DNA of 44,606 nt. It comes from Lachnospiraceae bacterium. Its GTDB lineage: Bacteria; Bacillota; Clostridia; Lachnospirales; Lachnospiraceae. This document shows positions 13,793 through 16,120 of the stretch, one piece after another (the stretch's first letter is position 1; the number at the start of each line of letters is the position of its first letter). A program made the translations under genes and the position numbers. Where the stretch lies: assembly GCA_017453065.1 (NCBI GenBank), contig JAFTKW010000009.1:1-44606 (forward strand), read 5' to 3'. The notes beneath the pieces are model-generated. The model saw only the letters and a list, made by a program, of their open reading frames with translations. It was not told the DNA's origin and made no database searches.

Positions 13793-13832
13793 AAAAGCTC
13801 TAAAGTGGAGAAATTCACTTTAGAGCTTTTTA
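13793..13832 (+). terminator. Rho-independent terminator after the SDR gene
   Basis: AAAGCTCTAAAGTG pairs with CACTTTAGAGCTTT around an 8-base loop and continues into T. Confidence 0.9.
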
Positions 13833-13889: not shown

Positions 13890-14804
13890 TTAATAGACTT
13901 TAATTCTTAAAATAGACATCCAGTTAGAGGGAAACCCCATTTCTTCCAATATGGTGTTTGATGGATGATATTTCTTGATTGATTTTTTGAGTTCATAGTA
14001 AAAATTTCGAAATATATGTGGATCTAATAAATATTTTAAGGAAATAACAACGGCAAACAAGTCGGACTTACCATATACGTACAAACTTCCTTTTTTGATA
14101 ATTTTGAGTTTTTGGTGTGCTGAACAATCTAAAATGGCATCGCCGGTTGAGTAATTAAATAAACGATTTCCGTGAGCGCATATATTTCTTGCTTTTGTAA
14201 GAAGGATTAGCATTTTGCTTAATTCTGCTCGCCCGATTTGATGGAAATCATTACATACATCTGTTTTACAAGTTCCTTTTAGATAACGAAACATTGTTGC
14301 AATTTCTCCGAATGTTAGGTCGGTCATAAGAACCCATAAAGGAACGTCTTGGTACAAAGATAGATAGTGTTTGATTTGTGGAGAGATATGGGGATTATTT
14401 ATTTTTTGATTCATTTTGTGAAATAGTTTCAAGACTTGATTTTTTTGATTCCCATAATCATAGTTGGCTAGATTCTGATAATCAGCAATTTCGCTTCCGT
14501 GTAATTGGGAAAAATGATAAGAGATAGAGGATTTGATATGTCGTTCGAAGATTAATATGTATTTTAAGAAGATTTCTCGTAAAGCTGTGTCAAATAGATA
14601 TATTTGATAAATATCATCAAATGTTGTTCCGCTAATATATCGGTTAGTTGTAGGATCTATAAATGCAGTCTTATATCCATTTATTAGTCCATAGTAACTT
14701 GTTCGTTGAAGAATATCTTTTGCATAAATCTCGTCATTAACTATTAGGTTTTTACTTTTTAGGTTTTGGATTTGTGAATTGTAATCTAGGAACATAGATG
14801 CCAT
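13890..14804 (-). CDS. Abi_2 (AbiD/AbiF-like) abortive-infection protein, HEPN type
   Basis: 304 residues. The N-terminal QIQNLKSKNLIVNDEIYAKD and YYGLINGYK segment is typical of Abi_2 proteins, and RNICAHGNRLFN (R206-H211, R-x4-H) is a HEPN ribonuclease motif. Such proteins are phage-defence or toxin-like RNases that stop growth of infected cells. Start 14804 is chosen because TTAAGGAGAAAAAT precedes it; the frame is open 39 codons upstream, but those bases hold a promoter, RNA hairpin and terminator. The gene is clearly richer in A+T than its neighbours, suggesting transfer. The upstream RNA unit resembles the arrangement of RNA-antitoxin systems. Confidence 0.88.
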   Translation of the reverse strand: MASMFLDYNSQIQNLKSKNLIVNDEIYAKDILQRTSYYGLINGYKTAFIDPTTNRYISGTTFDDIYQIYLFDTALREIFLKYILIFERHIKSSISYHFSQLHGSEIADYQNLANYDYGNQKNQVLKLFHKMNQKINNPHISPQIKHYLSLYQDVPLWVLMTDLTFGEIATMFRYLKGTCKTDVCNDFHQIGRAELSKMLILLTKARNICAHGNRLFNYSTGDAILDCSAHQKLKIIKKGSLYVYGKSDLFAVVISLKYLLDPHIFRNFYYELKKSIKKYHPSNTILEEMGFPSNWMSILRIKVY

Positions 14805-14819
14805 ATTTTTCTCCTTAAA

Positions 14820-14887
14820 TAACAAAACGGCCCCCGCGGGAGCCGCTCGGGTTACAGGCTTCTCAAGTTTCTGTAACTCATTCACTG
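14820..14887 (-). ncRNA. Short structured RNA ending in a terminator, upstream of the Abi gene
   Basis: Transcription from the promoter at 14893-14921 should begin near 14886. The predicted ~65-base RNA folds as a hairpin GTTACAG ... CTGTAAC enclosing a small CTT-GAG-AAG hairpin, then a GC-rich hairpin CGGC ... GCCG (14828-14845) followed by TTTTGTT, a terminator. It contains no ribosome binding site or credible reading frame. It is placed where RNA antitoxins sit in type III systems. I believe Abi_2-type genes have been reported with small RNAs, but I cannot check a covariance model here. Confidence 0.65.
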
Positions 14888-14892
14888 AAGTG

Positions 14893-14921
14893 ATAGTATA
14901 ACAAAAGTTTAAATTTGTCAA
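14893..14921 (-). promoter_or_regulatory. Promoter of the small RNA and Abi gene
   Basis: On the minus strand TTGACA (14916-14921), 17 bases, TACTAT (14893-14898): a near-consensus promoter. Confidence 0.8.
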
Positions 14922-15022
14922 CTGACCTTCAGACGAATATTAGTATATGCTAGTGGCTCGGTAAAAATGTGTATTGAGGGGATTTGTGAAACGAAGTGCC
15001 GTGAGACCAACAATAGAACATT

Positions 15023-15064
15023 AAAAAAGTAGCATGAGAATATGAATTGTATTCCCATACTACT
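15023..15064 (-). terminator. Rho-independent terminator after the DUF5050 gene
   Basis: On the minus strand, AGTAGTATGGGAATA pairs imperfectly with TATTCTCATGCTACT, followed by TTTTT. Confidence 0.75.
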
Positions 15065-15088
15065 CTTTCTTTGTGCAAAAATCAACAT

Positions 15089-16120
15089 TTATTTGTCCAT
15101 ATACTCCATGGCTGCCTGCATGGCTGCATCAAAGGTGGAAACAGAGGTGCTTCCAATTGGAACCATGTACAGAGGGGCTTCTTCGCCAAAAAGTTTGAAG
15201 AATACATAGCGAGAAGTCATGTTGATGGCAGTGTAGTTTCCACTGGCTACAACTTGGGCATTGCCACCATTTACGCTCATCATCTTAAGGGCTGGGGCTG
15301 TGGCAGAGTTGGCCTGATAGTAGATGTATCCGCAACCTACATTGAAACAGTCCACACGGTCGTGGGTCAGGATTTCAATCTGGTCCTCAGATAAAGAGTA
15401 TCGGCAGAGACGATAGTCGTTGGCTACATCTAAGTAGTAGATATATCCGTTGTCGTAAACAGGATCCCAGATATTGCCCTGCCATACAACGCTGCTTGTG
15501 TCTGTATTTGGATTCCAAGAATAGAGATAATGATTGCTTTCTACGCCGTTGTAATAAATCTGTTCTGTAGTTGCACAGGATGGATTGATGGCTGCAGGGT
15601 AGAGAAGTACATTTTCGGATTCGTCAATCTTGACCTTGCGAAATTCTGGTCCATCATCGCTCGTGGTGGTGTAATATATGTAATTTCCAAGAAGCTGCAT
15701 ATCGAATATTACATCCTGAGAGAGACATTCACCATTTCTGCCATTTAATGAGGTTCGGTACATGCCGAAGGTACTTCGGATGTATCCAAGCCCACCCGTG
15801 CCAGAAGCAGACTGCTGATAGTAATAAAGGTGGTTTTCGTCAGCACTGATGAATTTGACCTTGGCGGACAAAAGACGCTTAATATCTGTTCCATCAGGCT
15901 TCATAGAGTAGAGGGCGCCGCCGTCGTATGGGTTTGAAAAGTACACTAGCCCATTTTTTTCGCAGAATAAGCCACCGTTGTTTAAGTTTCCTGCGGTGTT
16001 GCCGACTACATTTGAATCGTTTAACTTTATTTTCCTAGTATTTAAGGCGATTACAGCCAAAAGAAACACAAAAAATATGGTGAGAAAGACGATTAGAAAT
16101 TGCTTTGTTTTTTTGCTCAT
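15089..16120 (-). CDS. Membrane-anchored DUF5050 beta-propeller-like protein
   Basis: 343 residues. A lysine-rich start (MSKKTKQF) and one membrane segment (residues 8-26) are followed by an extracellular region built from repeats with the pattern 'YIYY' or 'LYYY' (GLVYFSN, HLYYYQQ, YIYYTTT, QIYYNGV, YIYYLDV, YIYYQAN), each near a 'lysine/arginine-V' strand. This matches the DUF5050 family, thought to form a propeller. The function is not known; it may bind a wall or secreted ligand. It is divergent from pheA with overlapping promoters. The start follows AAAGGGGCACCT, a good ribosome binding site. Confidence 0.8.
   Translation of the reverse strand: MSKKTKQFLIVFLTIFFVFLLAVIALNTRKIKLNDSNVVGNTAGNLNNGGLFCEKNGLVYFSNPYDGGALYSMKPDGTDIKRLLSAKVKFISADENHLYYYQQSASGTGGLGYIRSTFGMYRTSLNGRNGECLSQDVIFDMQLLGNYIYYTTTSDDGPEFRKVKIDESENVLLYPAAINPSCATTEQIYYNGVESNHYLYSWNPNTDTSSVVWQGNIWDPVYDNGYIYYLDVANDYRLCRYSLSEDQIEILTHDRVDCFNVGCGYIYYQANSATAPALKMMSVNGGNAQVVASGNYTAINMTSRYVFFKLFGEEAPLYMVPIGSTSVSTFDAAMQAAMEYMDK

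Follow-up and report, generated by a model that had tools for sequence, protein, structure and literature searches.

A candidate second class of AbiF antitoxin RNA, with possible toxin-free decoy copies in phage tRNA arrays

In type III toxin–antitoxin systems such as ToxIN, the gene for an RNA antitoxin is followed by a terminator and then by the toxin gene. The systems closest to the locus described here are those of AbiF. In sections of a 2025 report, AbiF and an RNA that inhibits it are described as a type III-like toxin–antitoxin system, and the likeness to type III systems is drawn there (PMC12373285). As described there, AbiF(Cd) and its RNA, RCd22, from C. difficile phi027, comprise a sigma-A promoter, a short structured RNA, a terminator, and a ribosome binding site, together with an Abi_2 HEPN gene that has an RxxxxH motif. 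According to the same sections, the RNA is mostly terminated short, with some read-through; the AbiF protein alone is toxic; changes of R202 or H207 abolish the toxicity; and the RNA binds the protein directly and so neutralises it, whether supplied in cis or in trans (PMC12373285). For PbAbiF, the part of a review that treats it gives one RNA per monomer (PMC12737573), and the corresponding passages of two sources propose that Cas13 descends from AbiF (PMC12165695, PMC12737573). Rfam catalogues a small RNA located 5′ of Abi_2 genes as the abiF RNA (RF03085), a 37-nt single hairpin with a 6-bp stem, a 1-nt bulge, and a 6-nt internal loop.

Here, we analyse a related locus in a 44,606-nt stretch of DNA from a Lachnospiraceae bacterium (contig JAFTKW010000009.1 of assembly GCA_017453065.1; the whole stretch is referred to as the window). 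The module spans positions 14921–13890 on the minus strand, where a sigma-70-type promoter is followed by a two-hairpin RNA of ~61 nt (R1) and then by an Abi_2/HEPN gene with its ribosome binding site; it shares with AbiF(Cd) all of the elements listed above, and it has the type III feature of an RNA gene with its own promoter, then a terminator, then the toxin gene. The first-pass annotation of this DNA had called the layout type III-like: the order of parts bears this out, although the idea is already published and there is one RNA unit and no array. The locus also differs from ToxIN in that its candidate toxin is a HEPN protein of the AbiF type and not ToxN. Whereas the AbiF–RNA layout is already known, R1 differs from the catalogued RF03085 motif. 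Specifically, R1 has a 7-bp stem, a 13-nt loop region, and a second conserved hairpin; the two RNAs do not cross-match, and the RF03085 model gives no match in the window at its gathering score and none in positions 14500–15300 at E ≤ 10. RCd22 has two RF03085 motifs (33 and 35 nt, in the sections of PMC12373285 that describe it), whereas R1 consists of one 61-nt unit whose hairpin differs from theirs. R1 may be among the AbiF RNA covariance models of Zilberzwige-Tal et al. 2025, named in PMC12804078; among the literature matches listed, none describes an R1-like AbiF RNA or AbiF RNA decoys in phage tRNA arrays.

Layout and conservation of the R1 RNA

The module begins with a near-consensus promoter (14893–14921, minus strand), identified by pattern scan with 10 of 12 consensus bases: TTGACA, with its first base at 14921, is separated by 17 nt from TACTAT, which ends at 14893. 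Judged from this promoter, transcription probably starts at 14886 or 14885. The minus strand then reads, in order, GTGAATGA-GTTACAG-AAACTTGAGAAGC-CTGTAAC, a GC-rich stem-loop, AAGGAG, and ATG. Specifically, hairpin 1 (14851–14877) comprises GTTACAG at 14877–14871, a loop, AAACTTGAGAAGC, at 14870–14858, and CTGTAAC at 14857–14851; hairpin 2 (14825–14848) is the GC-rich stem-loop and also a likely intrinsic terminator, with an imperfect T-run at its 3′ side (TTTTGTTATTT); and the ribosome binding site AAGGAG (14811–14816) precedes the ATG, at 14804, of an abiF-like gene of 304 aa (13890–14804). The parts read at this place in the first pass, a near-consensus promoter before a short RNA and a GTTACAG/CTGTAAC hairpin plus GC-rich stem-loop before a ribosome binding site and HEPN gene, were thus all located; a TTGAC-type promoter lies immediately 5′ of the RNA in 39 of 42 loci (window counted), and the RNA is backed by a covariance model. 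Terminator-like inverted repeats are present on either side of the module: one, found by scan, lies 3′ of the abiF-like gene (13793–13830, minus strand; an exact 15-nt inverted repeat), and a long one (15023–15069; 20 pairs counted) lies between the upstream gene (15089–16120) and the promoter.

Scans of the window do not by themselves set these elements apart from chance. Promoter-like sites number 18 against 13.5 expected, and terminator-like sites 3 against 3.2, so that the terminator was rejected as stand-alone evidence; the single-sequence fold of R1 is only moderate (z = −2.31, with 3 of 200 shuffles equally good). R1 is judged to be more than chance because of its conservation, as captured by a model built without the window. 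Homologues were drawn from a scan of named genomes (seven loci), from same-genus genomes, and from family genomes; an Abi match is present in 29 of 138 same-genus genomes and in 105 of 397 family genomes (own genome included in both), and near relatives carry the same RNA 5′ of the Abi gene. We gathered 43 RNA sequences without the window, leaving out one false core match (L022), and the 40 distinct sequences make up alignment A1, from which the R1 covariance model was built. The model matches the window at 14885–14825, minus strand, with 73.7 bits and an E-value of 7.6e-17 (E-values are rough, owing to a short calibration), and gives no further match at E ≤ 0.001 in the 2.73-Mb genome.

Both hairpins are conserved as paired structures in A1. 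In hairpin 1, standard pairs fill 99.6% of 279 cells across the 40 relatives, against 26.5–43.7% in slid controls, and 62 cells are changed on both sides, against 14.9 in shuffles, a count reached by none of 500. Double changes occur at five of the seven pairs, which is within chance (3.8 in shuffles; 84/500), as is the number of further pair types (13 against 12.9 in shuffles; 340/500); two of the five shuffle measures on which hairpin 1 was judged do not exceed chance. In hairpin 2, 95.3% of cells are paired, with double changes at six of eight pairs. The earlier expectation that the stems would be kept 5′ of homologues is borne out in A1, with compensatory changes in both hairpins, and on this comparative evidence it is nearly certain that a structured RNA exists at the locus. 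Several bases of the hairpin-1 loop are invariant in A1; an inner helix within that loop (columns 19–21 with 25–27; 80.8% paired, one pair invariant) was set aside as unproven. A scan of the region against Rfam gave 12 matches at E ≤ 10, the best of which (L20_leader; 22.6 bits against a gathering score of 58.7; E = 0.064) was taken as chance. The window holds R1 as a single unit, with tandem repeats absent. At one locus (L056, 249–377), a single Abi gene is preceded by two R1 units in tandem, both of which include a hairpin 2, an arrangement that may be compared with the two motifs of RCd22.

The Abi protein and the distribution of R1 in bacterial genomes

The 304-aa product, the candidate toxin, matches PF07751 (Abi_2; E = 3.2e-42; 145.3 bits against a cut-off of 25.6) and PADLOC AbiD (E = 2.1e-62), and its residues 12–296 align with PDB 8vz6 (phmmer E = 6.4e-10). 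The AlphaFold2 model of the protein (mean pLDDT 70.4) resembles a single PDB entry in fold at E ≤ 0.001, namely 8vz6, titled 'PbAbiF dimer bound to ncRNA' (8vz6_A by Foldseek: E = 1.6e-6, probability 1.00, TM 0.63, 22% identity). The likeness to PbAbiF–AbiFr in fold and sequence is known from the protein alone (8vz6; discussed in part of PMC12737573). The HEPN R-x4-H motif is RNICAH (residues 206–211; 14172–14189, minus strand), within which R206, N207, C209, A210, and H211 are invariant in a six-sequence alignment. The window gene is the sole Abi_2 match in the genome. Relatives of the upstream gene occur in 107 of 138 same-genus genomes (own genome counted). In the 11 relatives inspected, no Abi gene was found within ~1.5 kb, so that the R1–Abi module looks like an accessory insertion.

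The 397 family genomes were searched for the protein and for the RNA, and the coordinates of the 137 protein matches and 87 RNA matches were compared, an Abi match being counted as R1-linked if R1 lies within 400 nt upstream on the same strand. With the strict filters used in the RNA search, which may miss weak RNA matches, R1 is present upstream of 38 of 39 full-length Abi matches at ≥185 bits, of 2 of 7 full-length proteins at 120–185 bits, and of none of the 44 full-length matches below 120 bits; the single exception in the first set (G326) has R1 just downstream, and partial Abi matches have R1 upstream in 2 of 4 and 3 of 43 cases. By this comparison of coordinates, R1 belongs to one clade of Abi_2 HEPN proteins. 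The RF03085 motif is found at two of five distant Abi loci (36.7 and 36.0 bits; gathering score 37) and at none of ten R1 loci. An order-level search found R1 in 24 of 295 genomes, 7 of them outside the family of the window, and a phylum-level search found it in 3 of 299, all of that family, own genome included. At two loci a full Abi gene is immediately followed by R1 on its own strand: at L087 (1501–1561; G326) this is the sole R1 copy, and at L143 (1203–1264; G307) another copy lies upstream.

Of the 87 R1 matches, 46 are followed within 400 nt by an Abi match, which is full length in 41 cases. The other 41 lack one, and all of these were inspected, along with one paired locus (L150). An Abi remnant detectable by tblastn lies in the next 1.5 kb at 11 of the 41, and three of these remnants cover 237–285 aa of a broken or displaced gene. 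The 30 without a remnant by tblastn include G307 and G326, which have a full Abi gene upstream instead, and L125, at which the contig edge lies 7 nt after the RNA. An RNA that outlives its gene is the one-way pattern that an antitoxin predicts and is suggestive only; as proof of antitoxin function the argument was downgraded, because a 61-nt target also outlasts a 915-nt one.

At L078 and L127, the sequence begins like an Abi gene, by eye; at some further loci R1 has other neighbours. At L074, L081, L085, L092, L094 (RNA ~1501–1562), and L136, R1 (47–72 bits where listed, with no clear promoter) lies before a small gene (MCDVKKYSDIYKEI...), with no Abi gene, and most of these loci also have a kinase-like gene (MKKFTIVAGVNGAGKST..., zeta-toxin-like by eye). 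At L155 (2558–2618), L156 (5103–5163), and L130, a promoter and R1 lie directly before a short gene that starts M(V/I)ITVTELKQNLDKY and is type II antitoxin-like by eye. L090 and L091 (1501–1539) have hairpin 1 only (32.9 bits), with a perfect stem and loop, within a further outer stem and flanked by genes that are phage-like by eye; this may be a prophage decoy.

Toxin-free copies of R1 in phages

Pattern scans of IMG/VR yielded 111 distinct loci, and the R1 model was run on all except L201, which was judged by eye. R1 is present at ≥37 bits in 19 loci, namely 15 of 15, 2 of 34, and 2 of 61 loci of successive viral pattern sets; the loose patterns mostly lack R1 (4 of the 34 loci match at E ≤ 0.1, and 2 of the 61 in the later set), and the viral pattern ATAGATACTCGTGAGGACTAT found nothing in IMG/VR. 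A full Abi gene is detected by tblastn at 7 of the 19 (L152, L153, L154, L157, L158, L161, and L224), and the start of one is seen by eye at L173. Ten loci (L155, L156, L159, L160, L162–L166, and L238) lie in records that contain no PF07751 match, and the nineteenth locus is L194; an Abi_2 match is present in none of the 11 viral records searched (L189 included), records that may be fragments. The tblastn matches in L155 and L156 are short and coincide in part with R1.

Copies of R1 without Abi_2 lie in or beside tRNA arrays at L162 (2479–2539), L164 (5233–5293), L165 (4093–4153), L160 (203–263), L166 (5599–5659), and L159 (7477–7536). L162, L164, and L165 are one virus and L160 and L166 another (100% identical overlaps), and of four pieces that align between these two viruses, the longest two are 72–73% alike. 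R1 occupies the gap between tRNA-Met (1 or 5 nt upstream) and tRNA-Arg (7 nt downstream) in both phages, within an array of up to eight tRNAs. L159 is a phage contig with terminase and portal genes and no detectable DNA similarity to L162; its R1 (37.3 bits) lies 5 nt after tRNA-Ser, with the next tRNA 225 nt on. Pairing is partly expected in copies found with a structure model; L162 and L160 have seven of seven stem pairs, in different letters, with the UGCG loop kept, and L159 likewise has seven of seven pairs and UGCG. The best 8-nt T window after hairpin 2 contains 4 T in L162, 5 in L160, and 2 in L159, against 5–7 in the 42 Abi-linked loci; the terminator looks weakened in the tRNA-array copies, with L160 at the edge of the Abi-linked range. 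Two copies that are not in tRNA arrays, those of L163 and L238, show 6 and 7 T after hairpin 2.

Judged from sequence, the chances are about even that the phage copies are decoy antitoxins. They are likewise about even for the fuller proposal, in which R1 forms a second AbiF antitoxin RNA class that phages have captured as a toxin-free decoy inside tRNA operons. On this proposal, tRNA-processing enzymes would presumably cut R1 out of the operon transcript, and the copies would keep both hairpins and their loops with a weakened form of the U-tract that would stop the operon. It is quite possible, if somewhat short of an even chance, that the copies are instead hitch-hiking remnants of AbiF modules, or have some other job: in bacteria, broken modules are frequent (a detectable remnant lies at 11 of the 41 R1 matches lacking a downstream Abi), L155 and L156 look like remnants (promoter and R1 without the gene), the viral lineages are few, their records may be fragments, and the tRNA placement is an informal observation. 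What hitch-hiking accounts for less well is that two phages ~72–73% alike keep R1 in the tRNA-Met/tRNA-Arg slot with seven of seven stem pairs, in different letters, and with no promoter or gene remnant beside it, and that a third phage, with no detectable DNA similarity to L162, has R1 just after tRNA-Ser.

Phage RNAs that act as phage R1 would are described for other systems: pseudo-ToxI of Phi-TE resembles the RNA partner of a defence nuclease (PMC5449768), and Racr RNA anti-CRISPRs are phage RNA mimics directed at another defence system (PMC10651486); the passages of these sources that describe them do not mention placement in a tRNA array. Cyanophage S-CREM1, like the phages with R1, carries an AbiF-type RNA on its genome; unlike R1, that RNA is a classical RF03085 (51.6 bits), and the part of the source that reports it proposes no decoy role (PMC9964418). 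If the decoy proposal is true, RNA counter-defence travels along with phage tRNA cargo; phage tRNA arrays are worth searching for non-tRNA RNAs, and the toxin-free copies make counter-defence testable with one RNA and one protein.

Other viral matches were also noted. A blastn search of INPHARED with a phage R1 copy gave three records at E ~5, none of which was accepted: the best match, in Fusobacterium phage JD-Fnp7, by eye seems to be coding sequence, and no tRNA lies within 3 kb of it; the other match place, in two records of Citrobacter phage CVT22, coincides with an annotated gene. At L189, a locus with 16 tRNAs whose record contains no PF07751 match, hairpin 1 alone is matched (22.1 bits). 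In L163 (2490–2550), R1 (61 bits) lies between endolysin and integrase genes in a 58.6-kb viral record without Abi_2.

Proposed function of the RNA and its alternatives

The locus is very probably an AbiF-type toxin with an RNA antitoxin, and we infer from the published AbiF that R1 would inhibit the Abi protein of the window. The first-pass proposal of an RNA antitoxin for a HEPN Abi protein agrees with the C. difficile AbiF system as set out in the sections of PMC12373285 cited above. In favour are the window-free model, the covariation in both hairpins, the link to one clade, the promoter in 39 of 42 loci, and the Pfam, PADLOC, and 8vz6 matches, and the toxin-free copies in phages point to action in trans; counting against are the single RNA unit, as opposed to the two motifs of RCd22, the lack of an RF03085 match, the two hairpin-1 shuffle measures that stay within chance, and the presence of R1 at only 2 of 7 full-length proteins of 120–185 bits. 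In the mechanism that we propose, the promoter would yield mostly short RNA ending at hairpin 2, with few transcripts reading through into the gene; R1 would bind the AbiF dimer via its conserved loops and block the RNase centre; and termination at hairpin 2 would also limit the amount of toxin. Phage attack would upset this balance, whereupon free AbiF would cut RNA and growth would stop. A second AbiF RNA class tied to one clade would offer natural variation on the antitoxin RNA-to-guide RNA question.

It is unlikely that R1 is only a cis-acting attenuator, a riboswitch-like leader that limits Abi transcription without binding the protein. The T-rich DNA after hairpin 2 (5–7 T in the best 8-nt window at the 42 Abi-linked loci) would suit an attenuator, and termination control free of the RNase belongs to the published system (sections of PMC12373285). 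However, attenuation does not need the invariant bases of the hairpin-1 loop, the toxin-free copies in phage tRNA arrays have nothing to attenuate, and the published relative, as far as those sections describe it, works in trans.

Highly improbable is a role of R1 as a cofactor or guide needed for nuclease activity, in the manner of a Cas13 crRNA, in place of inhibition. The placing of AbiF at the root of Cas13 (passages of PMC12165695 and PMC12737573) and the clade-specific pairing of RNA and protein would fit such a role, but the AbiF of PMC12373285 is described there as toxic in the absence of its RNA, which neutralises it. In R1, moreover, the hairpins are separated and flanked by short, conserved sequence with no variable segment that could serve as a guide, and the phage copies would on this view aid defence.

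It is scarcely credible that no separate RNA exists and that this DNA instead encodes the N-terminal part of a 343-aa product. An open frame does extend to a TTG at 14921, but this TTG would fall inside the −35 box, AAGGAG sits before the ATG at 14804, the sequence changes preserve base pairs, and at 30 of 42 loci (window counted) a stop in frame with the gene lies between the start codon and the 5′ end of the RNA. On account of these stops, a coding 39-residue N-terminal extension was rejected; a translation start at 14921, which the first-pass annotation had named as contrary to its own reading, is not a conserved feature, and the open frame through the RNA is, as that annotation suspected, an accident.
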